In this document: positions 4,269 to 36,041 of the stretch, piece after piece
Numbering within the stretch: position 1 is the first letter of the stretch
Layout of the letters: every line of letters starts with the position of its first letter
Origin: an uncultured Planctomycetota bacterium
GTDB taxonomy: Bacteria; Planctomycetota; Planctomycetia; Pirellulales; Thermoguttaceae
DNA length: 64,000 nucleotides
Direction of reading: 5' to 3'
Assembly (NCBI GenBank): GCA_902786505.1
Contig: CADACS010000004.1
Location: 1-64,000, forward strand
Program-made: the position numbers and the translations under genes
Notes under the pieces: model-generated
Database searches by the model: none
What the model was told of the DNA's origin: nothing
Seen by the model: only the letters and a program-made list of their open reading frames with translations

Positions 4269-5519
4269 TCACGCGATCGGCTCGCCCTTAGCGGAATCCC
4301 ACTTGCAGGACCTCTCCCGCGCGAGCGCGACGGCCTCGGCGAACACGTCGATCGCGCGGTCGATCTCTTCGTCGGTCGTATACCGGCTCAGACTGAATCG
4401 GAAATTCCCCTGCAGCGCGCCGGACGGAACGTTCATCGCGACGAGCACGTGCGACGGCTCAAGCGATCCGGACGTGCACGCGGAGCCGGACGAAACGCAC
4501 ACGCCGCGCTCGGACGTCAGCATGAGAATCGCCTCTCCCTCCGCGCCGTAAACCGCGATATTCAGCGTGTTAGGCGTGCGGGGCGCGTTCTTCCCGTTAA
4601 CGACGATCCACGGAATCCGCTCTTCGAGCGACGCCTGAAGCCGGTCGCGCATCGCCTCCATGCGCGCGCCGCGTTCGAAAAGGCCGTCCGCTTCGAGATC
4701 GAGCGCTTTCGCAAGACCCATAATATAGGGGACGTTCTCCGTGCCCGCGCGGCGGCCGCGCTCCTGATGACCGCCGATGAGAAAGCGCTCGAACGCGGTT
4801 CCGCGACGCAAATAGAGCGCCCCGACGCCCTTCGGCGCGTGGATCTTATGGCCGCTGAACGAAAGCATATCGACGTGACCGAAAGCGCCCGAAAGACCGC
4901 CGCTCGGATCGATTCGGCCAAGGTCGATCGGAAGCTTCGTTACCGACTGCGTCGCGTCGACGTGGAACGCGATCTTAGGATCCGTCTGCTTAACGATGCG
5001 CGAGAGCTTCTCAATGGGGAAAATAACGCCCGTCTCGTTATTGGCGTGCATAACGGAAACGACCGCCGTTCGGCCGGGCTCGAGCGCCTGAACGAATTCG
5101 CGGATATTGATATTGCCGTCTGAGTCGACGCCGACGTACGATACGTCGCAGCCTTCTTTTTCAAGCTGTTTGCAGACTTCGAGGACCGCCGGATGCTCCA
5201 CCTTCGTCGTAACGATCTTATTACGCTTAGGATCCGCCTTGACCGCCCCTTTGAGACCGCCGACGAGCGCCGCGTTATTGCTCTCGGTCGCGCAGGACGT
5301 AAAGATAATTTCGTCGGGATAGTCGGCGCCAAGCCGTTCGGCGACGAGCTCGCGCGCCCCGTCGATTTCGCGCGCGAGCGCGAGCGCGGGCGCGTACATG
5401 GAACTGGGATTCCAGTATTTCGCTTCAAAATAGGGCCGCATCGCCTCCACGACTTCCGGAGCGACGGCGGTCGTCGCGTTATTGTCAAGGTATACGATTT
5501 TCTCTTGCTCGGACGCCAT
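4269..5519 (-). CDS. nifS: Cysteine desulfurase (NifS/IscS family)
   Basis: A 416-residue PLP enzyme that converts cysteine to alanine and passes the sulfur on for Fe-S clusters or thiolation. It starts with YLDNNATTAVAPEVVEAM, has the PLP-lysine motif SFSGHKIHAPKG, RAGTENVP, and the mobile active-site cysteine in SSGSACTSG, the NifS/IscS (type I) arrangement. The length fits. GGAGAAGGA precedes the ATG. No iscU, nifU or mnmA is adjacent, so the acceptor is unknown. It is divergent from xylB. Confidence 0.93.
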   Translation of the reverse strand: MASEQEKIVYLDNNATTAVAPEVVEAMRPYFEAKYWNPSSMYAPALALAREIDGARELVAERLGADYPDEIIFTSCATESNNAALVGGLKGAVKADPKRNKIVTTKVEHPAVLEVCKQLEKEGCDVSYVGVDSDGNINIREFVQALEPGRTAVVSVMHANNETGVIFPIEKLSRIVKQTDPKIAFHVDATQSVTKLPIDLGRIDPSGGLSGAFGHVDMLSFSGHKIHAPKGVGALYLRRGTAFERFLIGGHQERGRRAGTENVPYIMGLAKALDLEADGLFERGARMEAMRDRLQASLEERIPWIVVNGKNAPRTPNTLNIAVYGAEGEAILMLTSERGVCVSSGSACTSGSLEPSHVLVAMNVPSGALQGNFRFSLSRYTTDEEIDRAIDVFAEAVALARERSCKWDSAKGEPIA

Positions 5520-16721: not shown

Positions 16722-19700
16722 ATGAAAGCTAAATCAACCCAATTTCTGCGCCTGACCGTCGCGTTGTTCGCGGCGCTCGCGTTGACGCTCGGCGCCGGCC
16801 GAACGTCTTTCCGCGCGGACGCGGCCGCCGCCGCAAATCCGGACGCCGTCGTCCCTCCCCTGAAAAGATCCGAGGCGAAACCCATGCCAAGAAACGATCG
16901 CGAAATCAAAAAGATCGATCCGAATACGGAGTCGGTTCCTTTTGCGGGTCTGGCCGCTAAGACGCCGGAAGAGGCCGCCAAAGCGCTCGAAGGCCTCTCG
17001 GTCGACGAGCGGCTCGCCGCGGGCGACAAGCTAGCGGGCGAGAATATGTTCGCGGACGCGCGCGTTCTCTACGAATCGGCGCTCGCTCCGGAAACCGCGG
17101 AGGAGAGCTACCTCAAAGCGCTCGACGGCATGGCGAACGTTCTCCGCATGTCGCGCGGCGGGGGGCGCAACGGCTCCGCGTTCAACAGCTACCGTGCGAC
17201 GCTCGAAAAAGCGCTCGAACAGAAGAAGGATTCCTGGCGCGTTAAGATTTGGGTCGCCAAGCATTTGCGAAGCGATCTGCCAACGCAGGGCAAAATGGTC
17301 GACAATCAGTTCGTCTACGATCAGGGGTGGTCGCCCGATATGCTCTCGAACGCGGACCGCGTGAGAGTCCGCTATCTCCAGCTCTTTGCGGAATCGCTCC
17401 CTCTCGTTCGGGAAGAAGGCAAACAGCTTCTCGAATATTATGGCAGGAATCCGGGCGAAAAGGACGTTCCGGGCGCGATCGACTCGATTCGCAGAGACGT
17501 CTCGTCGTTCTTTATCTCTTTTGCGGAATCGCTCGCAAGGTCGCCCGGCGAATACTGGAGTCTCCAGACGCTGACCGATCTGACGACCCTGCCCGACTAC
17601 GCGCCTGTCAACGAGCAGTACAACAGAAACCGCTATGCCGGCGCCCCGACCGACAAAGACGGCAATCCCATTTTCTACGCGACGCCCGATTCCTTTGAGG
17701 CGGCCCAAAACGACGGCGAACGCCGCCAGGCCCTCTTCGAAGAAGCCATGCGTTACGATCATACCGACGCGACCAAACTCACGGTCGTCAATTACCGCGC
17801 GCTCGACGCCAGCATGCTCTTCGGCGTCCAAACGCTCAGCTCATACCGGTTCTTCTTCAACTCCGACGCGGACGCGGACGCGGAATCGGTCGCGGGCGGA
17901 ATCTGGGCGCTCAATACGCTCAAAGATTCCGAGACGATCGCGAAGCTCGCGGGCGGGGTCAAGCGCTTCGATCTGCCCGAAAATTACGACTATATCTCGC
18001 TGTGGCGCGAAGCGTTCGAACTCAATCCGAAGAATCCGTCTCCGCTCGTCAATATAGCGCGCGAATACGAAAACCGCCGTCAGCTCGACAAGGCCGCGGA
18101 AGTCTGGCGGCAGCTGCTCGAAACGCCCGGTTTAGGGAATAAAACCGAATATCAGAACGCGCTCGATCAGATCATTAAGCCTCGCGTGCGGTTTGACGTC
18201 AGTTCGCAAGCGGCGGGCTTAGACGCAAAGCTCGCCGTTCGTTTCCGGAACGCCACGGGCGGCTCGATTGAAGTCAAGCGGCTCAATATCGACGCGGCGC
18301 TCAGACAAATCCGTTCGACGTCCTTCTGGCAGAATTACGGCGGGGGCAATCTGGTTTATCTCGTCAATCAGCTCGTTCAGGAGGAGCTCAATCCGAATCC
18401 CGACCAGAAAAACGAAAGGCGGAGACTGCTCGGATTACTCGGACTGTCGGAAAAAATCGTCGGCGACAAGGTCGCGGATTACCGCGTCTCCTTTGATCCC
18501 GCGCCAAATCATTACGACCGCGTCTCCGCGGTCGATTTCCCCGTCCACGAACCGGGCGCGTTCCTCGTTACGGTCCACGCCGACGACGGAAACGACGACG
18601 CCGCGATCGTCTGGCTGCGCGAGCTGGCGCTCGTGCGCAAGACGTACAAGGAGGGCAACCGATTCTTTGTCCTCGACGCGACGACCGGCCAGCCGCTCGC
18701 CAATCGCGAAGTCGAGCTCTTTGCCGTATTCGACCGCGGACGCTCGAACAAAACCAGAACGAAAACAGTTAAAAAGACGACCGACGCGCAGGGCTCCGTT
18801 CTCGTCGCGAGCGGCGATTTCCCAGAGAACGACGGTTTCACGCTCATTGCGACCGTTCCCTCGAAGGACAAAAACAAGACGCATTACGCGTTTTTGGACG
18901 CCCAGTATATCTACCTTTCCATCTACGCGGACGAGCAAAAGTACAGTCAAACGCGCGCGTTCTTTATTTCCGACCGTCCGATCTACCGGCCGGGCCAGAA
19001 GGTCGACTTCCAATTCACCGTCGGCAACGCGCAGTACGACGCGCCGGAAGCGAACGAGTGGGCTGGCAGGCAGGTCGATTATCAGATCAACTCGCCTTCG
19101 GGCGAAAAGATCGCGCTCAAACGCGTAACGCTCGACGAGTACGGCTCTTTCAGCGATTCGTTTGAGATTCCCAAAGACGGGAAACTCGGCGTCTATCACG
19201 TCATGCTCGCGGAAAATATCCACGAAGACGGTTCCGTTCACGGCCTCTATCTCGGCGACGGAATGTTCCGCATGGAGGAATACCGCAAGCCGGAATTCAA
19301 AGTCTCGGTCGACGCCCCGAAAGAGCCCGTCGTTCTCGGAGACGCCTTTAAGGCGACCGTCAACGCGAAGTACTACTTCGGCGCCCCGGTTACGAAAGCG
19401 ACCGTCTCGTACAAAGTGACGCGCACGCGGTATCAGTCAAGCTACTACCCCGCGCGGTATTGGGACTGGTTCTACGGATGCGGATACTGGCAGTTCCCCT
19501 ACGAGGCGGAATGGTATCCCGGCTGGAGCAAGTGGGGATGCTGCCGGATCTTTATGCCGTATATGTACAACCGGCCGACCGGGGTCCCGGAAATCGTCGC
19601 CGAAGGGGAGGCGGAAATCGGAGAGGACGGAACCTTTGAAATTTCCGTCGATTCGGCGCTCGCCAAGCTGATCTATCCGAACGACGACCAGCAATATGAA

Positions 19701-22700
19701 ATCGAAGCGGAAGTCGTCGATCAGTCACGCCGCGTTATTACCGGATCCGGAAAGGTTTACGCCGCCCGACGCCCGTTCCAGACCTACGTCTGGTTCAATC
19801 GCGGCTACTACAAGTCGGGCGACGTTATGACCGCCGGATTTGAAGCGCGCCGGATCGACGGCAAGCCGGCGGTCGGAGACGCGGCCGTTAAGCTCTATAA
19901 GGTTTCGTACGCCAAGACGGACGACGGCTCCGTTAAGCCGATCGAAAAAGAGGTCTTCTCGAAGGCGCTCAAGACCGACGAAGACGGAAAAGGAACGGTC
20001 GAAATCGTCGCCGCCGAGCCCGGCCAGTACCGGCTCTCGTGCGTCGTTACGACCGAGTCGGGCGCGAGCGAAGAGGGCGGCCAGCTTATCGTCGTGCGCG
20101 GACCGGCCAATAAGAGCCAAGTCAAGCCGGAATTCCGATTCAACGCGCTCGAAATTATACCCGACAAGCCGGAATATTCCGTCGGCGACGTCGCGCGCGT
20201 TCAGATCGCCTCGAACAATCCGAACGCGTACGTCCTCTTTACGGACCGGCCGCTCGGCGCGATTTCCCAAGGCGTTCCGCGATTCGTTAAACTGGAAAAC
20301 GGAACCGCTTACGTCGACGTCAAAATCGAGACGGCCGACCAGCCGAACATCTTTGTTCAGGCGTGGACCGTCTTCGACGGAAAATATTACGCGGAACAGA
20401 AGGAGCTCGCCGTGCCGCCCGAAAAGCGCGTCCTCGACGTCGCCGTCGAACCGGCTCAGGACCGCGTTAAGCCGGGCGCGAAAGCGGCCGTCAAGCTGCG
20501 TCTGACCGACGTCGACGGCAAGCCGGTCGTCGGACAGACGGTCGTCGCCGTATACGACAAGTCGCTCGAAGCGGTCTCCGGCGGGAGCAACGTCGGGGAT
20601 ATTCGCGAATTCTTCTGGAAATGGCGCCGTCACGCGGGCTTAGAAGGAACCGCCAATCTTTTGGAACCGACGTTCATCGACGCGTTCCACTTCGTCTATT
20701 TCGACGGCAAAGCGACGCGTCTGGAGACGGTCGGCGCCTTTGGCGACGTCATATTCTCCGGCGCGGTTGAGGAAAACGCCGTGTTCGCGCGCGACGGCAT
20801 GGCCGGAGGCATGGGCGGCGGCATGGTAGGCCGCGCCGTGGCAAAGGGCCGCGCTATGGCCGCCCCGATGATGATGCGGAAAGAGGAATCCGCCGACATG
20901 GATATGGCGATCGCGGACGAGGAAGTCGCCGAAGCCGAAGCGCCAATGGCCGCCGCGGCCGCGCCCATGAACGACGCGCTCGCGTTCGCGGAGATGAAAA
21001 CGGCGGCCGCGCCCGCGGAACCGCTCCCGGCCCCGGACGCCGGCTCGGAATCCGCCCCGCTCGTGGAAGCGGTCGTTCGTAAGAACCTCGCCGACGTCGC
21101 CTACTGGGCGGCCGATCTCAAGCCGGACGACGACGGCGTGATCGAAATTGAAATCGACATGCCGGAAAACTTAACGACCTGGAAGATCGGCGCGTGGTCG
21201 GTCGGCGCGGGCTTGCGCGTCGGGTCGGGCGAATCGGAAATCGTTACGAGCAAAGACGTCATTATCCGCATGCAGAAGCCGCGGTTCCTGACGCAGAAGG
21301 ACGAAGCCGTCTTAACGGCGAACGTGCACAACTACCTCGGATCCGAGAAGAAAGTCCAAGTCTCGCTTGAATTTCCGACTGACGATCCGGAAAAGTCGAC
21401 CGCGAAGCTCGCGTTCCTCGACGGCGTCGAGCAGACTCAGACGGTCGTTACGCCCGCCAACGGCGAATCGCGCGTCGACTGGCGCGTGCGCGCCGACGCG
21501 CCCGGCGTCGCGACGCTCGTGATGAAGGCGCTCACCGACGAAGAGTCGGACGCGATTCAGGATACCCTGACCGTCAAGGAACACGGAATCCAGAAGCAGC
21601 TCGCCGTCTCCGGAACCGTACCCGCCGCCGATAAGGACGAAGCGAAAGAGGACGGCGAACAAAGCGTTCGCGAATCGACCTTTACGCTGACCGTTCCGGA
21701 AGAACGCCGTCCGGAAACGGCGAAACTCGCGATTCGGTTCTCGCCGACGCTCGCGGGCGCCATTTTCGACGCGCTCCCCTACCTTGCGGACTATCCGTAC
21801 GGCTGCACGGAGCAGACGCTCAATCGGTTCTTGCCGACCGTCGTAGCGCAAAAAGCGCTCATGGACGCGGGCGTCGACCTTGCCAAACTGCAGGAGAAGA
21901 AAGCGAATCTCAACGCGCAGGAACTCGGCGACGCGAAGGAGCGCGCGGAACAGTGGCGGCGCGTCAATCGGCTCAAGGAGCCGGTCTTTGACGTCGACGC
22001 TGTGCGCAAAATGTCCGCCGACGGCGTCGCGAAACTCCTCTCCATGCAGAACGGCGACGGAGGCTGGGGCTGGTTCTACGGAATGGGCGAACATTCGACG
22101 CCGCATCTGACCGCGTTGGTCGCGCGAGGGCTTAAACTCGCTCAGGAATGCGATCAGGAGGTCGACGCGAACGCGCTCGACCGCGCGCAAACCTGGCTCC
22201 TGCAGTACGAACGTTCGCAGACCGCCAAGATTATTCGCGGCAAGGTCTGGACCGACGAAGAAAAGCAGAATCGCTGGAGCGAATGGAAGAACGGCGCCGA
22301 TTCGACCGACGCGGCCGTCTACTACGCGCTCGCGGAGCTCGGCGTCCAGCCGACCGCGTATTCGGAAGATTTCGTCGATTACGATAAAGCGGATATTCCC
22401 GATATCGCGTTCGATCAGGTTCACTCCGTTATGAAGGAGCTCCTCTGGGAAGCGCGAACGGATCTGCAGCTCTATTCGCTGTCGGCGTACGCTATTGCGC
22501 TCACGAACGAGCCGGACCGCGATTCCAACGCGCAAAAGCGTATCGAGGCGATTCTCAACGTTCTCGCGCAATACCGGTTCGAGGACAAAGAGGATCAGAC
22601 GGTTCGGCTCGATCTCGCCCGCGTCAACGGCTGGTATTTCTGGTCGTGGTTCGGGGGCGAATACGAGACGCAGGCGTACTATCTGCGGCTCCTGAACCGG

Positions 22701-23570
22701 GTCGACCGCGACACGCTCCAGAAGCTCGGGCTCGAAAACGACGCGCCGCAGCTCGTTAAGTATCTGCTCAACAACCGCAAGAACGCGACCTACTGGAACT
22801 CCACGCGCGACACCGCGCTGTGCGTCGAGGCGTTCTCCGAGTATCTGCAGAAGACCGACGAGCTCGCGCCCAACGAGACGGTTGAAGTTCTTGTCGACGG
22901 CGAAGTTAAGACGACGGTCGAATACACGCCGGACAATCTTTTCGAGACGAACGGGCTGCTCGAGCTCTCCGCCGACGAAATCACGTCCGGAGATCACGAG
23001 ATCACGCTCCGCGTCGCCGGGAACGGGCCGCTCTACTATAACGCGTATCTGGAATTCTTTACGCTCGAAGACCCCATTGCGAAAGCGGGCCTCGAACTCA
23101 AGACGGAACGCCGTTATTACAAGCTCGTCGAACGCAAAGACGCGACCGCGACCGTCGAGGGCGGGCGCGGACAGGCCGTCTCGCAGCGCGTCGAACGGTA
23201 CGACCGTATCCCGCTTAACTCGGGCGACGAAGTCGTTTCCGGCGATCTGATTGAAGTCGAGCTCATCGTCGACAGTAAGAACGAGTACGAGTCGATTCTG
23301 CTCGAAGACGCGAAAGCGGCGGGCTACGAACCGGTCGAACAGCGCAGCGGATACAACGGGAACGCGCTCCATGCGTACGTCGAATACCGCGACGACCGCG
23401 TATGCTTCTTCGCGTCGCGGCTCCCGGAAGGGCGCTCGACCGTAACCTACCGGATGCGCGCCGAAACGCCCGGACTCTTCTCCGCGCTCCCGACGAGAAT
23501 CTGGGCCATGTACGCGCCCGAGCTCAAAGGGAACGCCGACGAGTTCAAGGCGAAGGTAAACGACCGCTAG
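16722..23570 (+). CDS. Giant alpha-2-macroglobulin family protein
   Basis: A 2282-residue exported protein with a signal peptide (LRLTVALFAALALTLGAG). An N-terminal helical, TPR-like region (to about residue 500) precedes macroglobulin beta-domains (for example SDRPIYRPGQKVDFQF near 750, MEEYRKPEFKVSV near 850). A flexible Met/Ala/Gly-rich bait-like segment lies near residues 1360-1450, followed by VAYWAADLKPDDDGVIEIEI and the thioester region: PYGCTEQTLNRFLP with Cys at residue 1695, so the CxEQ thioester is intact. The alpha/alpha toroid (NGDGGWGWFYG) and C-terminal receptor-like domain follow. It probably traps proteases at the cell surface. No pbpC-type gene is adjacent. A terminator follows. 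Confidence 0.92.
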   Translation: MKAKSTQFLRLTVALFAALALTLGAGRTSFRADAAAAANPDAVVPPLKRSEAKPMPRNDREIKKIDPNTESVPFAGLAAKTPEEAAKALEGLSVDERLAAGDKLAGENMFADARVLYESALAPETAEESYLKALDGMANVLRMSRGGGRNGSAFNSYRATLEKALEQKKDSWRVKIWVAKHLRSDLPTQGKMVDNQFVYDQGWSPDMLSNADRVRVRYLQLFAESLPLVREEGKQLLEYYGRNPGEKDVPGAIDSIRRDVSSFFISFAESLARSPGEYWSLQTLTDLTTLPDYAPVNEQYNRNRYAGAPTDKDGNPIFYATPDSFEAAQNDGERRQALFEEAMRYDHTDATKLTVVNYRALDASMLFGVQTLSSYRFFFNSDADADAESVAGGIWALNTLKDSETIAKLAGGVKRFDLPENYDYISLWREAFELNPKNPSPLVNIAREYENRRQLDKAAEVWRQLLETPGLGNKTEYQNALDQIIKPRVRFDVSSQAAGLDAKLAVRFRNATGGSIEVKRLNIDAALRQIRSTSFWQNYGGGNLVYLVNQLVQEELNPNPDQKNERRRLLGLLGLSEKIVGDKVADYRVSFDPAPNHYDRVSAVDFPVHEPGAFLVTVHADDGNDDAAIVWLRELALVRKTYKEGNRFFVLDATTGQPLANREVELFAVFDRGRSNKTRTKTVKKTTDAQGSVLVASGDFPENDGFTLIATVPSKDKNKTHYAFLDAQYIYLSIYADEQKYSQTRAFFISDRPIYRPGQKVDFQFTVGNAQYDAPEANEWAGRQVDYQINSPSGEKIALKRVTLDEYGSFSDSFEIPKDGKLGVYHVMLAENIHEDGSVHGLYLGDGMFRMEEYRKPEFKVSVDAPKEPVVLGDAFKATVNAKYYFGAPVTKATVSYKVTRTRYQSSYYPARYWDWFYGCGYWQFPYEAEWYPGWSKWGCCRIFMPYMYNRPTGVPEIVAEGEAEIGEDGTFEISVDSALAKLIYPNDDQQYEIEAEVVDQSRRVITGSGKVYAARRPFQTYVWFNRGYYKSGDVMTAGFEARRIDGKPAVGDAAVKLYKVSYAKTDDGSVKPIEKEVFSKALKTDEDGKGTVEIVAAEPGQYRLSCVVTTESGASEEGGQLIVVRGPANKSQVKPEFRFNALEIIPDKPEYSVGDVARVQIASNNPNAYVLFTDRPLGAISQGVPRFVKLENGTAYVDVKIETADQPNIFVQAWTVFDGKYYAEQKELAVPPEKRVLDVAVEPAQDRVKPGAKAAVKLRLTDVDGKPVVGQTVVAVYDKSLEAVSGGSNVGDIREFFWKWRRHAGLEGTANLLEPTFIDAFHFVYFDGKATRLETVGAFGDVIFSGAVEENAVFARDGMAGGMGGGMVGRAVAKGRAMAAPMMMRKEESADMDMAIADEEVAEAEAPMAAAAAPMNDALAFAEMKTAAAPAEPLPAPDAGSESAPLVEAVVRKNLADVAYWAADLKPDDDGVIEIEIDMPENLTTWKIGAWSVGAGLRVGSGESEIVTSKDVIIRMQKPRFLTQKDEAVLTANVHNYLGSEKKVQVSLEFPTDDPEKSTAKLAFLDGVEQTQTVVTPANGESRVDWRVRADAPGVATLVMKALTDEESDAIQDTLTVKEHGIQKQLAVSGTVPAADKDEAKEDGEQSVRESTFTLTVPEERRPETAKLAIRFSPTLAGAIFDALPYLADYPYGCTEQTLNRFLPTVVAQKALMDAGVDLAKLQEKKANLNAQELGDAKERAEQWRRVNRLKEPVFDVDAVRKMSADGVAKLLSMQNGDGGWGWFYGMGEHSTPHLTALVARGLKLAQECDQEVDANALDRAQTWLLQYERSQTAKIIRGKVWTDEEKQNRWSEWKNGADSTDAAVYYALAELGVQPTAYSEDFVDYDKADIPDIAFDQVHSVMKELLWEARTDLQLYSLSAYAIALTNEPDRDSNAQKRIEAILNVLAQYRFEDKEDQTVRLDLARVNGWYFWSWFGGEYETQAYYLRLLNRVDRDTLQKLGLENDAPQLVKYLLNNRKNATYWNSTRDTALCVEAFSEYLQKTDELAPNETVEVLVDGEVKTTVEYTPDNLFETNGLLELSADEITSGDHEITLRVAGNGPLYYNAYLEFFTLEDPIAKAGLELKTERRYYKLVERKDATATVEGGRGQAVSQRVERYDRIPLNSGDEVVSGDLIEVELIVDSKNEYESILLEDAKAAGYEPVEQRSGYNGNALHAYVEYRDDRVCFFASRLPEGRSTVTYRMRAETPGLFSALPTRIWAMYAPELKGNADEFKAKVNDR

Positions 23571-24410: not shown

Positions 24411-26075
24411 ATGAAAACCGCAAGTCTCCGCAATACGGCGCCGTTTGCCGCGGCGCTCGCCGCGCTGATCCTTCTCCTGTCCTCCCAGTCCCTTTTCGCG
24501 CAGGCGGAACCGGCGGCCGTTCCCGTCGCCGTTCCCGCTCCTGAGATTGCGCCGGAAGCCGAGCCGGAAATCGGGGGCCCGAAGATATACGTCCTTTCCC
24601 TGTTCGACGTTACCGACGAGGAGCAAAGCGCAATTTTCTTTGCGGACGCGGGCAGAATCCGCGGTATTTTTCATAACGCCTACGGAGTTTCCGTCTTTTG
24701 GGACCGCGACATATACGAATCCCATTTCGACGGCCCGACGGGAGACGCGCCCGTTCAAAACGAATGGAGCGGCCCTCTCGACGGCCCGGAAGAAGAAACT
24801 GCGGCTTCCCTCTTTGACGCCCCCGACGAACAGGAGTTGCGCAAAGCGGAAATTCGCCGTATTCGCCGCAGACTGGGCGCCGAGGATCCGGATTTCAGCA
24901 TATTCGACAAGGCGGCCGCTCTTTTACGGAGCCGCCGCGTCAAGCCGGACGACGCGCTCTTCATCTTCTGGAGCGGGCACGGCGCTATCGAAAACGGCCG
25001 GCATTATCTTCGTCAGGCCAACGGCAAAAGCATACCGCGCCAAGAACTGCTCGACGCGGCCAAAGGATGCGGCGCGCGGCTGACCGTTCTCATAACCGAC
25101 TCGTGCGCCAGTCTCCGCCTGTCGGGCAAAAGCGACTACGTAACCGACAGAATCCCGTGCGCGGCCGCGCCTATCGCGGTGGCGCCCCTTTTCGAGGAAC
25201 TCTTCTTTAATTACCGCGGAACGCTCGACGTCAATTCGTCTTCCGAAGGGGAACGCGCCTATTCCTTCTTTCAGCCGTCCGCGACTGCGAGAGTTAACGA
25301 TTTCGAGTTCAAGACGCAGGACGTCAGCGGCGGATGTTTCTCGCTTGGTCTTGCGAGCGAAGCGGCCGTCTGGTATCCTTTCCACGGCGAACTGATCAAC
25401 GCGGTCAAGGCTCACAACAGGCGGTATATAGACAAATACGCGAAGGAAATCGACGAAGATTTCCTTTCGTTCGGCGCGTTCGACGTCTTCGTCGACGAAA
25501 GAAGGAGTTGGCGCGACGTACTGAATTACGCTCAGACGGTCGCCAATATTGTGTTCCGCCGCCTTCCCTACTACAACCGTCTGAATCAGCGCGGTCAGCA
25601 CATAAAGATATTTGAGGAGCCGACGCGAATTACGGAGAATCCGAAATATCTGTTCTCCAAAGACATTCCGACGCGCTTTTTAGGCGGCCCCGTCGACTGC
25701 TACGACAAGCTGCCGTGGACGCCTCAGGCGAACTACATGCCGCTGCCGGGGGACGTCGTCCTCGAAATTAACGGGATTCCAGTTAACGACTCCGAGCTAA
25801 CTCCGATGGATTACGAGGCGGGCTACGGCGGCGACATAAACGCCGCCAAAAAGGGCCGCGTGTACACGATGATCAGAGAATCGTCCGAAACGGCCGTCTT
25901 AAAGCTGAAAGACGTCAAGTCGGGCAGAAATTATTATTACCGCACAAAACTCCTGTCCTTTGAGAACGAATCGCGAATTGGAATCATTCCCGCGATCGAC
26001 GCCGAAGGGAATCTTACCGTCGGGTCGGTCGTACCCGGCTCGCCCGCCACGCGCGGCCAGTTCGCATGGGAATAA
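24411..26075 (+). CDS. Secreted caspase-like (C14) protein 1
   Basis: A 554-residue exported protein: signal peptide (AALILLLSSQSLFAQA), Pro/Ala linker, then a caspase-fold domain. The catalytic dyad is visible as FIFWSGHG (His190) and LITDSCAS (Cys232). A PDZ-like segment follows near residues 440-480 (LPGDVVLEINGIPVND), and the protein ends VVPGSPATRGQFAWE. It is 51 bp upstream of, and a paralogue of, the next gene. Bacterial caspase homologues act in signalling or regulated death; the exported location suggests periplasmic or surface proteolysis. Intact catalytic residues imply activity, but the substrate is unknown. Confidence 0.85.
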   Translation: MKTASLRNTAPFAAALAALILLLSSQSLFAQAEPAAVPVAVPAPEIAPEAEPEIGGPKIYVLSLFDVTDEEQSAIFFADAGRIRGIFHNAYGVSVFWDRDIYESHFDGPTGDAPVQNEWSGPLDGPEEETAASLFDAPDEQELRKAEIRRIRRRLGAEDPDFSIFDKAAALLRSRRVKPDDALFIFWSGHGAIENGRHYLRQANGKSIPRQELLDAAKGCGARLTVLITDSCASLRLSGKSDYVTDRIPCAAAPIAVAPLFEELFFNYRGTLDVNSSSEGERAYSFFQPSATARVNDFEFKTQDVSGGCFSLGLASEAAVWYPFHGELINAVKAHNRRYIDKYAKEIDEDFLSFGAFDVFVDERRSWRDVLNYAQTVANIVFRRLPYYNRLNQRGQHIKIFEEPTRITENPKYLFSKDIPTRFLGGPVDCYDKLPWTPQANYMPLPGDVVLEINGIPVNDSELTPMDYEAGYGGDINAAKKGRVYTMIRESSETAVLKLKDVKSGRNYYYRTKLLSFENESRIGIIPAIDAEGNLTVGSVVPGSPATRGQFAWE

Positions 26076-26125
26076 CCGCGGCGTCCTTAACCGTTCGGAA
26101 AACGCCCCTGAAAGAGAGAAAACGT

Positions 26126-27718
26126 ATGCCCGCTGTTCAGTTTGAATTCGGAAGACGGCTCGCCGCGGCGTTTGCGGCGCTCGTCCTTTTGTTGTGTCCC
26201 GCGCTCGCTTTCGCGCAGACGGAAGTCCCGGCCGATCCGGAAGCCGGCCGTTACGAAGAGCCAAAGCTCGGCGGGCCAAAGATCTACGTTCTCTCCCTCT
26301 TTGACTTGACCGACCAGGAGCAGAGCAGAGTCTTCTATGAAGACGCGCAAAGGATCGCGTGGGCGTTTTCAGAAATAACTTGTCCCGCCGCTGTGTTGTG
26401 GGACGCCGAGTTTTATAAAAAGGACGAATGGTCTGTCTTACAGGACGGTTCGGAGCCTCAAACGAAGTCGTTAAGCTGGGCCGAACTCGCCGTAAGCCGA
26501 ATGCGGACGGATAACGACGCTTATCAGCCCGACTACAGTATTTTTACAGAAGCGGTCGAGTTCCTGAAGAAAAAGAAAGTGGGAGAAAAAGACGCCCTCT
26601 TTATTTACTGGAGCGGGCACGGATTTTTCCAAAACGGCAAACATTATCTCCAGCAGGCCAACGGCAAAAGCATACCGCGTCAGGAACTGCTCGACGCGGC
26701 CAAAGAATGCGGCGCGCGCCTGACCGTCTTCATCACCGATTCGTGCGCCAGTATCAGGTTTTCCGGCCGCGCCGGTGCCCGGGAACCTCCCGCGTACGCG
26801 CCCTGCGCGCCCGCCGGGCAAGTCCCGCCGCTCTATGAAGAGCTCTTCTTTAATCACCGCGGCGTCCTCGACGTCAATTCCTCTTCCGAAGGCGAACGCG
26901 CCTATTCCTACGATATCAAGGGATTGGAAACTATTGACTCTGACGGAAACCGTTTCATTATGAACGATCCGAGCGGCGGCTGTTTCTCGCTCGCGCTCAC
27001 GGGCGGAACCGTCGGACTTTATCCCTTTCACAGGCAGATGTTAAGTCTTGTCCGCCAATACGATCCTTCTCTGAACGCCGTTGCCGACGACATGACTTAC
27101 GACCTCCCTTTCGGCGCGTTTAAAGTCTTAGGCGGCGAAAGAAAAAGCTGGCGCGAAACGCTCGATTTCGCACAGAAGGCGACTAGTATTGTTTTTCGCA
27201 ATCTGCCTAATTACAGAAACTTACGTCAGCGCGATCAGCATATCGCCATATTCGAACTGCCGACTCGAATTACGGCGACGCCCAAGCCGCTCTTTTCCGC
27301 GACGTTCCCACCCGTCTTTCTGGGCGGCGACGTCGACGATTACGACAGGCTGCCGTGGACCCCTCAGGCGATCTATTATCCCGAAAAGGGCGATCAGATT
27401 CTTGAAATTAACGGAACGCCCGTGAACGGATCCGAACCTCTCCAATTTGATTATGACGGACCGTATCAAGTCGGCGACATAGCGAGCGCTAAGAAGAACC
27501 GCGTTTACGCGCTGATTAAGAGGTCTGCCGACACGGCCGTCTTGAAGCTCAAAGATCATAAAACCGGCAAGAATTACTACTTCCGCACGAAACTGAATCC
27601 CAAAGGGAGCGGAACCCGGTTCGGCCTTTATCCCGAGATCGACGCCGAAGGGAATCTCGTCGCCGGAGCGACCGTACCCGGCTCCCCCGCCACGCGCGGC
27701 CAATTCGCCTGGGAATAA
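26126..27718 (+). CDS. Secreted caspase-like (C14) protein 2
   Basis: A 530-residue tandem paralogue of the preceding gene with the same order: signal peptide (AALVLLLCPALAFAQT), caspase domain with IYWSGHG (His165) and FITDSCAS (Cys207), PDZ-like segment (EKGDQILEINGTPVNG) and identical ending SPATRGQFAWE. His-Cys spacing (42 residues) is the same in both. The frame opens at 26066 inside the previous gene, but ATG 26126 gives a proper signal peptide. The variable regions are the N-terminal linker and the segment after the catalytic Cys. A terminator follows. Confidence 0.85.
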   Translation: MPAVQFEFGRRLAAAFAALVLLLCPALAFAQTEVPADPEAGRYEEPKLGGPKIYVLSLFDLTDQEQSRVFYEDAQRIAWAFSEITCPAAVLWDAEFYKKDEWSVLQDGSEPQTKSLSWAELAVSRMRTDNDAYQPDYSIFTEAVEFLKKKKVGEKDALFIYWSGHGFFQNGKHYLQQANGKSIPRQELLDAAKECGARLTVFITDSCASIRFSGRAGAREPPAYAPCAPAGQVPPLYEELFFNHRGVLDVNSSSEGERAYSYDIKGLETIDSDGNRFIMNDPSGGCFSLALTGGTVGLYPFHRQMLSLVRQYDPSLNAVADDMTYDLPFGAFKVLGGERKSWRETLDFAQKATSIVFRNLPNYRNLRQRDQHIAIFELPTRITATPKPLFSATFPPVFLGGDVDDYDRLPWTPQAIYYPEKGDQILEINGTPVNGSEPLQFDYDGPYQVGDIASAKKNRVYALIKRSADTAVLKLKDHKTGKNYYFRTKLNPKGSGTRFGLYPEIDAEGNLVAGATVPGSPATRGQFAWE

Positions 27719-27769: not shown

Positions 27770-27812
27770 AGACGCGTCGCGTCGGAATTCCCGTTCGACG
27801 CGTCTTTCTGTT
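27770..27812 (+). terminator. Terminator of the caspase pair
   Basis: A 10-bp stem AGACGCGTCG/CGACGCGTCT (27770-27779, 27796-27805), then a T-rich tail. Confidence 0.8.
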
Positions 27813-28065: not shown

Positions 28066-30222
28066 ATGACGCATCGTACAGAATTGGCGGCGTTTTCGGC
28101 GGCGTTATGCCTCGCCCTGACGTTTGTCTTTTTCATCTCTCCGGTCGGCGCGCAAGACAGTATGTCGCCTCCGCCAAATCAGATCCCGGAAGCAGGTCAG
28201 TACATAGGCTCTATTCGGCCGGTTTCTTCGGCAGTCAGCGCCAATATCCGGCCCGTCGTAGGCTCAAAAGATATCTTAACCCCCGGCGTGAAACCTCAGG
28301 AAGAGGCGGAAACGCGCGTTTGGGCGGGCGAATATGCCGGGCGGTACCTTCGGGGAACCGACGTCGTCTGGATACTTCTGGAAAACGGCAAAGAATTCCA
28401 GATTCCCTCTAAGAGGTTGACAACAGCCGATAGGGTGTGGCTGAAGTCGAATATTTTCGCCTACTGCCGCAAGCGCGCGCTGATAGTCGGCGTGCCTTAT
28501 GCGCCCAACTACGACGATATGCCCAACGTAGAGTCCGACGTCAATCTTATGTTCAAAGCGCTTCAAAAGCGCGAATTTGAGGAAATCTGTATTCTAACGC
28601 CAAACAGCGGACTCCCGGAATTAGAGCCGACGAAAAAGAATATCGAAGACGCGATCGCCAGAATGATCGACAAATCACACTCGGAAGACGCGATCTTTTT
28701 CTATTTCTCAGGCCCCGGATGCGTAACCGACTCCGAATACTATTTCATTCCGTCCGACGTCGATAAATTCAATATCAAAGAGACGGCGTTCTGTTTCTCC
28801 GATCTCCACAGACGGCTGGAAAAAGTCAGAGTCAACTCGATACTTACGGTCGCGGACGTCAGCCTTCCTTTTTGCACGAATCAGGGCAAACCGCTTGTCA
28901 GACAGAGCGGCGCGCTTTCCCGTTCTGGGGCCGTGAGCAACGTCAGCCACAGACCGAATTTCGTCCCGCCGGAGGGAACGGCGTTCTTTTACGGATGCCA
29001 AGAAGGCGAGTCTCGCAACGAAGACCCGTTGAACCATTGCGGGCTGTTTACGAAAGCGTTCGTCGACGCTTTTCTAGGCAACTTCCCTGACGGTCGGAGT
29101 CGGGAAATCAATTTCAGTTTGATCGTCGGTCACGCGACCAGCACGATAAGCGTCCAGACGGACTATCGGCAAATTCCGCAATTCACCCATGGCAAAGGTT
29201 TTGTCGACCTGTCTTTTGATCCGATCGACGACGGGGAACAGAGCGTTCCCCTTAAAAAACCGGATGAAGCCCCGGCTGAAAAATCGACCTTCATAGCAAA
29301 GGGAGAAACTAAGGAAGACGCAACCGTCAAGCCAGCGTCGTCAACAACGGATCCGGTCATTATAGGACCGGTCCGAGATTTCAAAGCGGTTTCCGTTGGC
29401 GGCGCGGAATACAGGTTCGTCCGGATCCCTGCCGGAACGTTCCATATGACGACTCCTGACAAAGACGTTACGGTTCCGCAGGATTATTGGATGCTCGATA
29501 CGGAAGTCCCCCTTAAATTGTGGCTGGAATTCGCAAAAGAAAAGGGATACAAGGTTCCTTCCTCTCCCGATAATTTTGGATACGACGCCACTCTCAAGCA
29601 ATTTCTCAAATCCGAAAAATTCTCGCCCCAGAACGTCGGTTTTGAGCAAACGGACGATCATCCCGTCGTCGAGGTCGCCCCAGTCGACGCGATAGCGTTC
29701 TGCAGCTGGCTGACCGAGAAAGTGAACGCGGGTTCGGCGCCCGATTCCCCGCAACTCGTTTGCGATCTGCCCGCCGTTTCGCAATGGATTTACGCCTGCC
29801 TAGCGGGCGTGACGACGAAGTACTCCTTCGGCGACGATCCGGCCCTCCTCCCGCAAAAGGCAAATTTCGGCGACGTCAATTTCAAAAACGCGCTAAACGC
29901 CAACACGGTCAAGGCGCTGCACGACGCCGGCTGGCCTTTTTCGGACAGCGACGACGGGTTCGCCTTTACCGCGCCCGTACGTTCATATTCCCCGAACGCG
30001 TGGGGGCTCTACAATATGCACGGCAACGTCTCCGAAATATGCCGCGACGATCTCTCGCCCTCGGCGAAATTCTCGCGCTGCGGCGGAAGTCTGCTCGAAT
30101 CAGAACAGAAATGCGCCGCGGAAACGCGCTTGCCCGTACCTGAAACGCAGCGTGGATTTTACGTTGGATTCCGCGTCGTGCTCACTGAATCTCAGTCGGA
30201 TCCCGACGCTAGATTTCAATAG
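28066..30222 (+). CDS. Pseudo-caspase fused to SUMF1/FGE domain
   Basis: A 718-residue exported protein. Order: signal peptide (LALTFVFFISPVGAQ); SHD1-like segment (residues about 85-130, RVWAGEYAGRY...FQIPSKRLTTADRVWL); caspase fold (ALIVGVPYAPNYDDMP, then SDVNLMFKAL) in which the His motif reads FYFSGPG (Pro217 for His) and the Cys motif reads VADVSLP (Ser266 for Cys); Pro/Lys/Thr linker; SUMF1-type domain from about 445 (YRFVRIPAGTFHM...WGLYNMHGNVSEICRD...GFYVGFRVVL). Loss of both catalytic residues makes it a likely decoy, scaffold or ligand-binding protein working beside the two intact caspases upstream. SHD1-like and FGE domains are typical of planctomycete exported proteins. Confidence 0.8.
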   Translation: MTHRTELAAFSAALCLALTFVFFISPVGAQDSMSPPPNQIPEAGQYIGSIRPVSSAVSANIRPVVGSKDILTPGVKPQEEAETRVWAGEYAGRYLRGTDVVWILLENGKEFQIPSKRLTTADRVWLKSNIFAYCRKRALIVGVPYAPNYDDMPNVESDVNLMFKALQKREFEEICILTPNSGLPELEPTKKNIEDAIARMIDKSHSEDAIFFYFSGPGCVTDSEYYFIPSDVDKFNIKETAFCFSDLHRRLEKVRVNSILTVADVSLPFCTNQGKPLVRQSGALSRSGAVSNVSHRPNFVPPEGTAFFYGCQEGESRNEDPLNHCGLFTKAFVDAFLGNFPDGRSREINFSLIVGHATSTISVQTDYRQIPQFTHGKGFVDLSFDPIDDGEQSVPLKKPDEAPAEKSTFIAKGETKEDATVKPASSTTDPVIIGPVRDFKAVSVGGAEYRFVRIPAGTFHMTTPDKDVTVPQDYWMLDTEVPLKLWLEFAKEKGYKVPSSPDNFGYDATLKQFLKSEKFSPQNVGFEQTDDHPVVEVAPVDAIAFCSWLTEKVNAGSAPDSPQLVCDLPAVSQWIYACLAGVTTKYSFGDDPALLPQKANFGDVNFKNALNANTVKALHDAGWPFSDSDDGFAFTAPVRSYSPNAWGLYNMHGNVSEICRDDLSPSAKFSRCGGSLLESEQKCAAETRLPVPETQRGFYVGFRVVLTESQSDPDARFQ

Positions 30223-30299: not shown

Positions 30300-31763
30300 A
30301 TGACAATGACGTCGATTCGAATAAAACCGTTTGTTCTTCTGCTCGTTCTGCTCGCGGCTTTCCCGTTTTTCCCGGGCTCCGCCGCGGGCCAGGACGACGG
30401 ATCCGGTTTGCCGTACGGTTCGGACTGGTACAGATGGGGCGACGACCCGCGCCCGCTTGTTGAAGCGGACGACCCCTCTTCTGAGGCCGAGCACGGCGAA
30501 ACGCCTCAAGATCCTCAAGAGGATAGCGACACGCCTAAAAAGGGCGGCGAAACTACCCAAGATCCTCAAGAGAGCGGCGAAACGCCTCAAGAGGGCGGCG
30601 AGGCTCCTCCGGAGCCGACGACGCAAGCTGCAAAGAAACCGACTCTTGAACCGGACGAGTCAGACGAGCCAGACGATCCCGAGACGTCAGTCTCAGATTC
30701 GCTTCTCTTACTTCTCAAGGCGATTGGCGCCGGTTTTTGCGGGGAATACGGCCTCTCCGTTCAGGCGTGCTGTTTCGCCTGCCCCGCTTTTGCGTTCCTC
30801 GTTCTGTATATCCGGAGTCTTCGCAAAGACCGGAATTTCGAGGGGCAGTTCGACGGCGCGCAGACTCGGGAACAGCGCAAAATCGAGAAGAAGCGTCAGA
30901 AGAAACGCAGGAAACGGACCCTCAAAGACGTCAAGCGCAAGCCCGGCAAAAAAATGAAGCTCTACATTGGCGGGCATAAATACGTTTTCCGATGGTGCCC
31001 CGCGTGCGATCCGCGAGCCGGCGACAAACCGGCGGCGTCGCAAAGGGATCTGGAAGAACGGAGAGCGAACGCGACGCCCGGATTCTGGCTCTTGGAAACG
31101 GTCGTAACGCAGCAGATGTGGCGCGACGTGACGGGCCAGGATTTTTCTCCGTATCCCGCCAGGCGTCAGAGTTACGCGCGGCAGTTTGTCGCCAAGGACT
31201 CGTCTCCGGTTTATTACGTGACCTGGGACGCCTGCATGGAGTTCGTTAAATCTCTCAACGACCTGAAAGACGCGGAACTTTATACACAAAACGCGGTACT
31301 TAAGGATATGGAGTTCCGGCTCCCGTGGGAGGGAGAATGGGAATACGCGTGCCTGACAAACGACGCGGAGGGCTCTTTCGGGCTCCCGTACAGGCGCGGC
31401 CCAAACGACGCCGGCAACGCGCCCGTGACAAAATTCCGCAAGTCGAACGCCTGGAAACTGCGAAATATGTTAGGCAACGTGTGGGAATGGGTCAACGACG
31501 CCGGCGACGAGTATTCCCTGGGTTTCCGCGAAGCGACAAGCGCGGCGTTCTATTCTTATCCGACGGTCTACAGCGCGACGAACCGTCTCGCGCGCGGAGG
31601 AAGCTGGCGAGACGAATCCTTTGGGATCGACCCGCTAATCAGGCGCGAACAGATAAATACGGATTCCTGCGACGATCTGGGGTTCCGCGTCGCGCTGAGC
31701 TGGAAAGAAGATCCCCCCTATTCGGGTTCGAATTGCAACCGAACCGGATACCGATTACAATAG
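30300..31763 (+). CDS. Membrane-anchored SUMF1/FGE-domain protein
   Basis: A 487-residue protein with a signal peptide or first anchor (VLLLVLLAAFPFFPGSAAG), a low-complexity repeat region (residues about 60-110, GGETPQDPQE-type units), a transmembrane segment near 150-170 (CCFACPAFAFLVLYI), a very basic stretch (KIEKKRQKKRRKR) and then the SUMF1 domain (FWLLETVVTQQMW, PWEGEWEYACL, LRNMLGNVWEWVND, LARGGSWRDE, GFRVALSW). By charge, the FGE domain would be cytoplasmic if the N-terminal signal is cleaved and the basic stretch stays inside. No good ribosome site precedes ATG 30300 or 30306. It lies 77 bp after the pseudo-caspase gene. Confidence 0.8.
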   Translation: MTMTSIRIKPFVLLLVLLAAFPFFPGSAAGQDDGSGLPYGSDWYRWGDDPRPLVEADDPSSEAEHGETPQDPQEDSDTPKKGGETTQDPQESGETPQEGGEAPPEPTTQAAKKPTLEPDESDEPDDPETSVSDSLLLLLKAIGAGFCGEYGLSVQACCFACPAFAFLVLYIRSLRKDRNFEGQFDGAQTREQRKIEKKRQKKRRKRTLKDVKRKPGKKMKLYIGGHKYVFRWCPACDPRAGDKPAASQRDLEERRANATPGFWLLETVVTQQMWRDVTGQDFSPYPARRQSYARQFVAKDSSPVYYVTWDACMEFVKSLNDLKDAELYTQNAVLKDMEFRLPWEGEWEYACLTNDAEGSFGLPYRRGPNDAGNAPVTKFRKSNAWKLRNMLGNVWEWVNDAGDEYSLGFREATSAAFYSYPTVYSATNRLARGGSWRDESFGIDPLIRREQINTDSCDDLGFRVALSWKEDPPYSGSNCNRTGYRLQ

Positions 31764-31884: not shown

Positions 31885-32610
31885 ATGAAAAAGATACTTT
31901 TGATTCTCGTCGTCGTCGCGGCCGCCGTTTACGTCTTCGGCTGGCTTATCCCCGACATGAAGGAACGTAAAGAGCAGGCGCAGTACGCGTCGACCGCGGC
32001 GCAAGGTCAGCCCGACGCCGGCCCGGCAGGCGGACCCGGAGGTCCGGGCGGACCCGGCGGGCCCGGCGGCGGCCCCGGAGGACCCGGCATGGGCATGCGG
32101 CGCGGCAATCCGATGGACGCGCTCAAAAACGAAGAGGGACAGATCGTCATTGCGAAGGTCGACGAATCGGATATGCCCGAAGAGCGGAAAGCGGAAATGA
32201 AAGAATCCCTGACCGCGTGCGACGCCGACGGCGACGGACTGCTCAACGAAGAGGAACAGCAGGCGTACGGAGAAAAGCGCCGCGCCGATATGATGAACCG
32301 AATGTTCGACTCGCTCAAAGACGACGAGGGGAAATACGACCTCGCGAAGCTCGAAGAGGCGCGCATGTTCCCGCCCGCTAAGGAAGCGGCGAGAAACGCC
32401 GACGCCGACGGCGACGGATTCCTCAACGAAGAGGAACTGCAGGCGGCCAAAGACGCCGTCGCGGAACAGATGGCGCAAGGCCCCGGCGGTCCGGGCGGAC
32501 CCGGCGGACCCGGTATGCGCGGTCCCGGAGGACCCGGAGGTCCGGGCGGCCCGGGAGGTCCCGGCAGACCCGGCCCCGGCGGACCGGAAGGCCCCGCCCC
32601 GCAGGAATAA
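31885..32610 (+). CDS. Membrane-anchored EF-hand, Gly-Gly-Pro-rich protein
   Basis: A 241-residue protein with an N-terminal membrane segment (LLILVVVAAAVYVFGWLI), a collagen-like GGPGGP run near 45-70, two EF-hand loops with complete calcium ligands (DADGDGLLNEEE near 112 and DADGDGFLNEEE near 173), and a second GGP-rich tail. It is predicted to bind calcium outside the membrane. It is the last gene before a strong terminator and may be co-transcribed with the FGE protein upstream (121-bp gap). Confidence 0.8.
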   Translation: MKKILLILVVVAAAVYVFGWLIPDMKERKEQAQYASTAAQGQPDAGPAGGPGGPGGPGGPGGGPGGPGMGMRRGNPMDALKNEEGQIVIAKVDESDMPEERKAEMKESLTACDADGDGLLNEEEQQAYGEKRRADMMNRMFDSLKDDEGKYDLAKLEEARMFPPAKEAARNADADGDGFLNEEELQAAKDAVAEQMAQGPGGPGGPGGPGMRGPGGPGGPGGPGGPGRPGPGGPEGPAPQE

Positions 32611-33299: not shown

Positions 33300-36041
33300 T
33301 CAAGACGCCGAATCGCCGTCCCGTTTGCCGTCGGCGCCGGCCTCAAAGAGCGCCTCGACCGTGAGCGTCTTATAGCGCGGGAGCGAGTACCCGAACGGAA
33401 TAAAGAGGCATTTTATGAGGTCGTGGCTCGGAAAGGTCCGCACTTGCGCGCGGAACGGATCAAGGGGCGCGAAAAAGCGCGTCTTCTCCGACTGGAGGAC
33501 CGAACGCTGGCCAATGAAATGATAGAGGTCGAAGTACGACTTCATCTCCTCGCCGGGCTCGGCGCAGAATTCGTCCACGAACTGGTCGAGACGGCGCAGT
33601 ACGGCGAAGGTCGAGACCTCGTTGCGCGTAATCTGATACGTCCGCCCGGTCGGATCGAGCGCCTCGGCGAACGCGAGATTCTTTTCGAGAATACCGCGCC
33701 AGCGCTTATTCGGAAAATGGCGGCGTTTTGCGCTCTTCTCGCCCGTCTCCGCCTCCGCGGCGTCGATCTGGGCGTCGCGCGCTAGGTACCCCTTCAGGAG
33801 CGCGAAAACGTCGCTGAAGACGACGTCGCCCGTGCGGGAATGACGATAGGGAACGCAGAACTTATGGAATTCGTTAGCGCCGAGCTTCGCCTCGATCGCG
33901 GAAGAATCACGTTCGAACGCGGCGTACCCCATATAGTAGCGCAAATTTGCCTTGACGAGATTCTTAACGGCGACGTACGCGACCGTCAAATAGAGCCGCA
34001 TGAGCGTCTTAATCCGTTCGACGGCGACGTCCTTGCGGTTCTTCGAGCGGAATTCGTTGTCGACGACCGCGCTTCCCAGTTCGAGGACGCGGTTGAAAGA
34101 GAAGCTGGAGACCGCTTCGGTCAGCGCTTCGAGCTTCCGGTCGCGAAGCAGGCCCGGCCGAACCGGACCGAGCGCGCGCTGGATATAGCCGTCGAGCTGG
34201 TCGTCGGGCAGGCGTTCGAGAACGAATCGGACAATCTTGCGGTTCGACATGAGCGCGCGGACCGCGTCCGGCCGGACGTAGCGCGCAAGATAGACAAACC
34301 GGCGCGATTTAAGCGCGTTATTGAGAAGGAAGAGGCGGAACGCGCCGACGCGCCGCGAGAGCGGCCCTTCGATCGGCGGAAAGAGCGCGGCGACGGCGCT
34401 CTCGGTCAAGCCGTTCTCCTGATCCGAGGAGAAGCCGAACATACGGACCGCCATTTCGTAGAAGCAGCGCGAATTGAGCCGCGTGTCGCCCTTCATTTTG
34501 CCGACGCTCAGCAGGACGCGCAGCTGGTCGGCAATTTCGCCCGCCGCGGTTCCGCCGTTCTCGTTAAAGACGCCGTACAGCTTCGTAAAGAACATCTCTT
34601 CTCCGAGCGAACGCCCCACGTCGACAAAGCTCTGAATCGCGTCGAGCTTGTCAATGAACGAGGAGACGAGCTCGTTAATCTCTTTTGTGTCCAGGAAGTT
34701 GCACAGAAACGCGACGAGCTCGACCGCAGGATAGGCGTCTTCCGTTTCGATCGCCACGCCCGGAAGATCCCAGTCTTCGATCGGAGCGTTCCGGAACCGC
34801 TGGAAATCGTCGGGCCGAATAAAGAAGAGGCGCTCGAGCGGTTCCCGGTTCGCCTCCATAACGGCGACGGCGAGATCGCGATAGACGTCTTCTTTTTCTT
34901 TTTCGTCGGCCATGCGCAGCCGCGTTACGCCAAGTTCGAGCGTTTCGGCTCCGCTCGCGCCCGTTAAGTAGCGGAAGAAGAGGAAGTCGGCGAGCAGCCG
35001 GAGCTTCGGGCGGTAGGAGTCGAATTCCGGATTGGAGGCATACGGAAAGAACCGCTGAAAGACAATTTCGCGCAGCTTGCACAGATTCAAGCCGATATTT
35101 TTCGATTCTTTTCTGATACTGAACCGGTAGTAGAGGGACACGACGGCGTCGCGGTCCTCTTGAGTGCGCGCGTCGAGCAGCTCGAAAAGGATTCCAAGAT
35201 TGACGCGCGAGTTCTTAAAGAAGCTCGCGTTGACCTGACGAATCCGATTCGCGTAGCTCCAGTGGATAATCTTCCAGAGCTGGTCGTTGAATTTCAGGCG
35301 CAGCGCCGAACTCGCGGACCAGAAGTCGTCGTACTTCCAACGGCCCGTGATGCGGCGCAGTTTTCCGAGAATCCGGAGAACCGAAACGTTCCATTCGATC
35401 GCGTCCCGATACGTCGGACCGGAGCCGCGGACCCGGCGGGGAAACGGAAAGAAGACGTCGCCGTAAAGGGGAAACGAATCGGAGAGCGCCTCCGCGACCT
35501 CGTAGCCGCGCCGGCTGTAGAGCGGGCCGCGCGGAGAGTCCGACTTCCAGTCCTCTTCGGTAACCGGCTCGCCCGTCCGCTGGAGATTATTCAGGCAGAA
35601 GAGCGCCGCGTTAACGAAAACGCCGAGCGTCTTTTGAAGATTCAGAATCTGATAGACGATCTGAATGCGCATATTCTCGCCCGCGTACGTCCGGCCGAAA
35701 AAGCGGCCCTCGTACTGATCCTTCAGGAGCAGATAATCCTGCATGAACTCTTTGCGCGCCGCGTCGGCGAGCGCGCCCGCCGGATTCCGCGTTACCGCGC
35801 GAAGGGGCGCTTCCTTAACGGCCGACTGCTCGAAATTGACGTCGTCCGAAACGCCGACGACCCGAAAGCCGAACTTCTCCGGCGCCGCGTCCGAACTCGG
35901 CACCGGATCCCCGTCCTTCCAGACGATCTCGGCAAAGCGCCCCTTTCCGAACGACACGACGACTAACTTGCCGCTCCCGTACGCGAGCGCCGACTTAACG
36001 CCGATCCGTTTCGGCGCCGTTTTCTTAGACTTTTCCGACAT
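33300..36041 (-). CDS. cas13d: Cas13d (type VI-D) homologue lacking both HEPN catalytic histidines
   Basis: A 913-residue protein, collinear with Cas13d effectors (about 920-970). Shared landmarks: GVKSALAYGSGKLVVVSF at the N-terminus; IQIVYQILNLQKTLGVFVNAA; YYRFSIRKESKNIGLNLCKLRE; DTKEINELVSSFIDKLDAI; RRFVYLARYVRPDAVRAL then IVRFVLERLPDDQLD; RLYLTVAYVAVKNLVKANLR..MGYAAFERD; SYFDLYHFIGQRSVL; and C-terminal PFGYSLPRYKTLTVEALF. Cas13d has two HEPN RxxxxH sites (R239/H244 and R858/H863 in RfxCas13d). Here they read RRITGR (R229, R234) and RNEVST (R806, T811): arginine kept, histidine lost in both. I checked both codon strings. The frame is intact with normal codon use, so the gene is not decaying. 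No cas1, cas2 or array is visible. AGGAA precedes the ATG. RNA cleavage is unlikely; RNA binding remains plausible. Confidence 0.92.
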   Translation of the reverse strand: MSEKSKKTAPKRIGVKSALAYGSGKLVVVSFGKGRFAEIVWKDGDPVPSSDAAPEKFGFRVVGVSDDVNFEQSAVKEAPLRAVTRNPAGALADAARKEFMQDYLLLKDQYEGRFFGRTYAGENMRIQIVYQILNLQKTLGVFVNAALFCLNNLQRTGEPVTEEDWKSDSPRGPLYSRRGYEVAEALSDSFPLYGDVFFPFPRRVRGSGPTYRDAIEWNVSVLRILGKLRRITGRWKYDDFWSASSALRLKFNDQLWKIIHWSYANRIRQVNASFFKNSRVNLGILFELLDARTQEDRDAVVSLYYRFSIRKESKNIGLNLCKLREIVFQRFFPYASNPEFDSYRPKLRLLADFLFFRYLTGASGAETLELGVTRLRMADEKEKEDVYRDLAVAVMEANREPLERLFFIRPDDFQRFRNAPIEDWDLPGVAIETEDAYPAVELVAFLCNFLDTKEINELVSSFIDKLDAIQSFVDVGRSLGEEMFFTKLYGVFNENGGTAAGEIADQLRVLLSVGKMKGDTRLNSRCFYEMAVRMFGFSSDQENGLTESAVAALFPPIEGPLSRRVGAFRLFLLNNALKSRRFVYLARYVRPDAVRALMSNRKIVRFVLERLPDDQLDGYIQRALGPVRPGLLRDRKLEALTEAVSSFSFNRVLELGSAVVDNEFRSKNRKDVAVERIKTLMRLYLTVAYVAVKNLVKANLRYYMGYAAFERDSSAIEAKLGANEFHKFCVPYRHSRTGDVVFSDVFALLKGYLARDAQIDAAEAETGEKSAKRRHFPNKRWRGILEKNLAFAEALDPTGRTYQITRNEVSTFAVLRRLDQFVDEFCAEPGEEMKSYFDLYHFIGQRSVLQSEKTRFFAPLDPFRAQVRTFPSHDLIKCLFIPFGYSLPRYKTLTVEALFEAGADGKRDGDSAS

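Follow-up and report, generated by a model that had tools for sequence, protein, structure and literature searches.

Gene structure and genomic context

The DNA analysed here, a window of 64,000 nucleotides, carries on its forward strand at 28066-30222 a gene whose protein of 718 amino acids joins a caspase domain without its catalytic His to a degenerate FGE-sulfatase domain. An earlier, sequence-only reading had proposed this open reading frame, and both its frame and its coordinates were confirmed. The protein begins with a putative Sec-type signal peptide (residues 1-30; 28066-28155), read from the sequence, with a hydrophobic core and a putative cleavage site near VGA-Q, and this signal-like N-terminus suggests that it is exported. 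There follow a variable linker (residues 31-80; 28156-28305), recognised by its divergence from the orthologue described below, and a small beta-rich segment (residues 81-130; 28306-28455). The segment was previously called SHD1-like, a label without support from Pfam, which returned no SHD1 (PF03983) match in the segment itself, nor at the gene's genomic place at E-values up to 10. The caspase (Peptidase_C14) domain occupies residues 134-385 (28465-29220) and the FGE-sulfatase domain, which has a C-type-lectin fold, residues 441-718 (29386-30219). The sole name that a PADLOC scan gave to the gene was that of a generic caspase model.

Upstream on the same strand lie two caspase-like genes in tandem. 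The first (24411-26075) encodes a caspase-like protein, itself apparently exported, with a PDZ-like C-terminal part, and the second (26066-27718) is 56% identical to it; both have intact SGHG and DSC motifs. Arrays of such exported caspase-like genes with a PDZ-like part lie here (24411-27718) and at locus L051 (302-2182), and the family was found at full length nowhere else in the genus. Between the array and the pseudo-caspase gene are 347 bases that include a terminator-like hairpin (27778-27802, forward strand), identified by pattern match only, such matches being no commoner than chance in the region. The gene downstream (30300-31763, forward strand) contains another FGE-sulfatase domain (Pfam, 2.1e-21), and beyond it the forward strand encodes, at 31885-32610, a small protein containing EF-hand motifs as well as Gly-Gly-Pro repeats. 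Two genes upstream of the tandem pair is a gene for a protease trap, a bacterial alpha-2-macroglobulin (16722-23570, forward strand) with MG2, bait region, A2M, TED and bMG10 domains and a GCTEQ thioester motif.

Catalytic positions of the caspase domain

The caspase fold claimed for the protein is upheld at the level of sequence. Scanned by itself, the domain matches Peptidase_C14 (PF00656) with 43.4 bits (4.2e-11; cut-off 21.4), a match that the full-length Pfam scan had missed, and a profile of relatives built without this protein scores its caspase domain at 107 bits. The motif FSGPG begins at residue 214 and places Pro217 (CCC, 28714-28716) at the catalytic His position, in gap-free alignment both with the catalytic His of the solved metacaspases 6w8s, 9n3d and 4af8 and with that of nearly all relatives in the genus. 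The catalytic His that characterises the S-G-H-G motif of active orthocaspases is thus unambiguously lost, as the sequence-only reading had stated.

The same reading had assigned the Cys position to Ser266 and so considered both catalytic residues replaced. The residue numbering is correct, since ADVSLP begins at residue 263, and in the ungapped register Asp264-Val265-Ser266 matches D-A-C, with Ser266 (28861-28863) opposite the catalytic Cys. However, the profile of relatives prefers to place Cys270 (28873-28875) in the Cys column after a four-residue insert, at 107.2 bits; masking residue 270 reduces the score to 103.2 bits and restores the ungapped register, while masking residue 266 costs nothing, so that Cys270 is favoured by about 4 bits. 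Loss of the catalytic Cys is therefore likely on these alignments, and replacement of both residues is not settled, because Cys270 may occupy the Cys column. Structure prediction, proposed at that stage as a check, was run twice from thin alignments and gave models of low confidence (mean pLDDT 43.5 and 40.6), which did not settle the register of Ser266 and Cys270. Foldseek nonetheless listed caspases and FGE/PvdO/TvpA folds for the first of these low-confidence models, matching the sequence evidence.

The acidic residues of the S1 pocket are kept. Asp158 (28537-28539), in an invariant column, is equivalent by alignment to 4af8 to the S1-pocket Asp95 of Trypanosoma brucei MCA2, and Asp264 (28855-28857), which belongs both to the D-x-C motif and to the pocket, is likewise invariant. 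With a p20 domain in which at least one dyad residue, the His, is substituted in both species that possess the gene, and with these two aspartates in place, the protein has the features of a pseudo-orthocaspase.

Some hydrolase activity might persist through Cys270, or Ser266, acting with another base. The profile alignment gives this idea its footing: Cys270 may serve as nucleophile after the short insert, and an unrecognised base elsewhere in the protein could in principle assist it. A search of the caspase domain for a different His-Cys pair found none in any register tried, the structural models being of low confidence, and the domain has no His-Cys dyad because its His position holds no His; Pro217 is present in both species, and the four-residue insert between the Asp and Cys of D-x-C occurs in no other caspase domain compared. 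We regard residual activity as very improbable.

The FGE domain

Fusion to an FGE domain, also part of the sequence-only reading, is borne out by a Pfam match to FGE-sulfatase (PF03781) at residues 451-675 (94.2 bits, 1.4e-26, cut-off 23.3). Its consensus motifs are altered, with GNVSEI for GNVWEW and CGGSLL for RGGSW, and relatives keep these motifs. A true formylglycine-generating enzyme carries a catalytic cysteine pair after GGS; here a single Cys follows (GGSLLESEQKC). To judge from these motifs, the domain probably serves for binding rather than catalysis. It is not visibly diversified by a DGR, because searches of the genome found neither a reverse transcriptase (RVT_1) nor a template repeat, an absence weakened by the genome being 77% complete.

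Orthology and selection

Among 20 genomes of the genus, a single orthologue was found, in a sister species (G001), and a scan of GTDB returned the same record. This orthologue retains Pro217, Ser266 and Cys270, that is, every substitution, which answers in the affirmative, for the one orthologue available, whether the changes are conserved. Divergence is distributed unevenly along the protein. Residues 1-80 have 66% amino acid identity to the orthologue, only 10 of the 30 residues from position 31 being identical, and residues 81-135 are identical at the DNA level. The caspase part has a dS of 0.05 and a dN of 0.012, representing 7 replacement and 8 silent changes at 583 and 167 sites respectively, and replacement changes are fewer than expected under neutrality (Fisher p = 0.008, from 15 changes in one species pair). 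For the FGE part, dS is 0.21 and dN 0.075, again with fewer replacement changes than neutral (p = 2e-5). Against a local background dS of 0.05-0.07 in neighbouring genes, it is the FGE part and the N-terminal linker that are unusually diverged, and the caspase part is the most constrained.

A recent recombination of the near-identical caspase segment between genomes G000 and G001 was suggested by the dS of 0.20 seen in a giant protein of the genus (see below); this was dropped because of the background dS of the neighbouring genes.

That both the caspase and FGE motifs are degenerate might indicate a decaying pseudogene. Yet the frame is open over 718 and 734 codons in the two species, and the gene is not decaying but maintained, because both domains have accumulated fewer amino acid changes than neutrality predicts. 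Decay is accordingly most improbable.

Relationship to the tandem caspase-like genes

The sequence-only reading had emphasised that the gene sits directly downstream of two intact caspase-like genes and had cast its product as their possible decoy regulator or substrate-presenting partner. The genes are intact in their motifs, as it said, but they are only remote relatives, and the 347-base gap with its hairpin intervenes. We consider it rather unlikely that the protein is dedicated to the tandem proteins, whether by regulating them, serving as their decoy or presenting substrates to them, for instance through mixed dimers. The genes are adjacent and co-oriented in two species, signal-like N-termini are present on all three proteins, and the full-length tandem family and the pseudo-caspase gene are confined to the same two of the 20 genus genomes; but these genomes are sisters, so that their co-occurrence counts as one evolutionary event, and the two upstream proteins come from another, only remotely related group of caspases (E-values of 7e-9 and 6e-6). 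The tandem copy number is also variable, there being two copies here and three in the sister species, where the third lies between the pair and the orthologue. A functional link is therefore no more than a possibility, given the gap, the hairpin and a co-occurrence limited to two sister genomes. A bolder version, which we think quite doubtful, has the exported pseudo-caspase acting outside the cell membrane in the manner of c-FLIP, controlling, or presenting substrates to, exported active caspases of another subfamily encoded by the tandem genes.

Proposed function and comparison with known systems

The explanation that we favour, and think probable, is that the protein is an exported pseudo-orthocaspase that does not cleave but binds a peptide or partner in its pocket, with the FGE-like domain as a ligand module. 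The caspase domain would cleave no peptides because its catalytic His is Pro and its Cys is replaced or displaced. The acidic S1 pocket is kept, and hence a basic peptide or partner protein is probably still bound. The C-terminal domain, having a C-type-lectin fold stripped of the FGE consensus motifs, would then probably bind a ligand of its own.

Such proteins have precedents. Klemencic et al. 2019 (PMC6426788), in the portion of their paper on which we draw, report dyad substitutions in 858 of 9,994 bacterial orthocaspases and conservation of the two pocket Asp residues in bacterial pseudo-orthocaspases regardless of the dyad. Like those proteins, the product of the 28066-30222 gene combines a p20 fold and a substituted dyad with retained pocket aspartates; the commonest dyads given in that portion are YS, YA, YN and FS, and Pro at the His position goes unmentioned there. 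Asplund-Samuelsson et al. 2012 (PMC3501461) found that 4.9% of the caspase homologues of prokaryotes contain FGE-sulfatase and that Planctomycetes have only 64% intact dyads. Their metacaspase-FGE-sulfatase fusions have the same domain order as the protein described here, and one of them, from Trichodesmium (GI 113475804, Bac_PepC14|FGE-sulfatase), is scored negative for dyad status; the present protein differs in its signal peptide-like N-terminus and in having degenerate FGE motifs as well.

For inactive caspase domains, Kaur et al. 2020 (PMC7159879) propose roles as dominant-negative regulators, decoys or peptide binders, and in the MoxR-vWA conflict systems that they describe, inactive caspase and FGE/C-type-lectin domains serve as non-enzymatic binding modules, as may also be the case here. 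Unlike in those systems, no MoxR or vWA gene was seen among the neighbours at 20-38 kb of the window, the protein looks exported, and no DGR was found. The combination of a pseudo-caspase with FGE is thus already reported, and the protein is mostly one further example of a described class; what may be new are two details, the replacement of the His by Pro and the signal for export. Bacterial pseudo-caspases are common, but a function is known for few of them. With its plausible export signal, its conserved S1 pocket and active relatives adjoining it, this one lends itself to a straightforward test of whether such domains act by binding.

Pseudo-caspases elsewhere in the genus

Most caspase domains in the genus keep both dyad residues, and besides the 28066-30222 gene several independent losses are visible (loci L046, L041, L194, L148, L187 and L193, together with a giant protein that each of the 20 genomes encodes). 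In the tree, the branch that the 28066-30222 gene shares with its orthologue is isolated and long, at 1.99 changes per column. The same architecture is seen in L046 (genome G008, contig C490), likewise a caspase-FGE protein with a broken dyad (LSGRG, Arg for His); unlike the present protein, its Cys and FGE consensus are intact, and its loss is independent because it belongs to a different part of the tree. No caspase relatives were found in the viral contigs searched.

Related arrangements were observed at two further loci. On contig C23 of genome G010, an intact caspase gene is followed by one stop codon and then by an in-frame FGE open reading frame (L043/L015), 44% identical to the FGE domain of the 28066-30222 protein. 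A caspase-FGE protein from a member of the Spirochaetaceae (L073, 717-2690) has a broken motif, FAGYG, with Tyr at the His position.

The giant protein (L226; genome G000, contig C5, 934-16848) is a planctomycete extracellular protein of about 5,300 amino acids with CSLREA, beta-helix and fn3 regions and a caspase domain encoded at 4861-5454 of the same contig. Its Peptidase_C14 domain has lost both dyad residues (FAG[SG]G and D[AG][GS]Q) in 20 of 20 genus genomes, with one copy in each (L206-L225).

A Cas13d homologue in the same window

On the reverse strand at 33300-36041 is a full-length Cas13d homologue (PADLOC Cas13d, 4e-145; DjCas13d, 1e-70). No CRISPR array turned up when the window was crudely scanned for one. 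The His is gone from both HEPN R-x4-H motifs of the homologue (RRITGR and RNEVST), and it looks, from these motifs, to be naturally dead. The HEPN His residues are also lost in its orthologue in the sister species (86% identical) and in a relative in genome G012 (RKKLAN, RNDVGR); both are kept in the Cas13d proteins of G013 (RQKLAH, RNDAEH) and G018 (RHFTAH, RNSVAH). The homologue has a dN of 0.08 against a dS of 0.40. Together, the genus-wide giant pseudo-caspase and this Cas13d without HEPN His look more interesting than the 28066-30222 gene itself.
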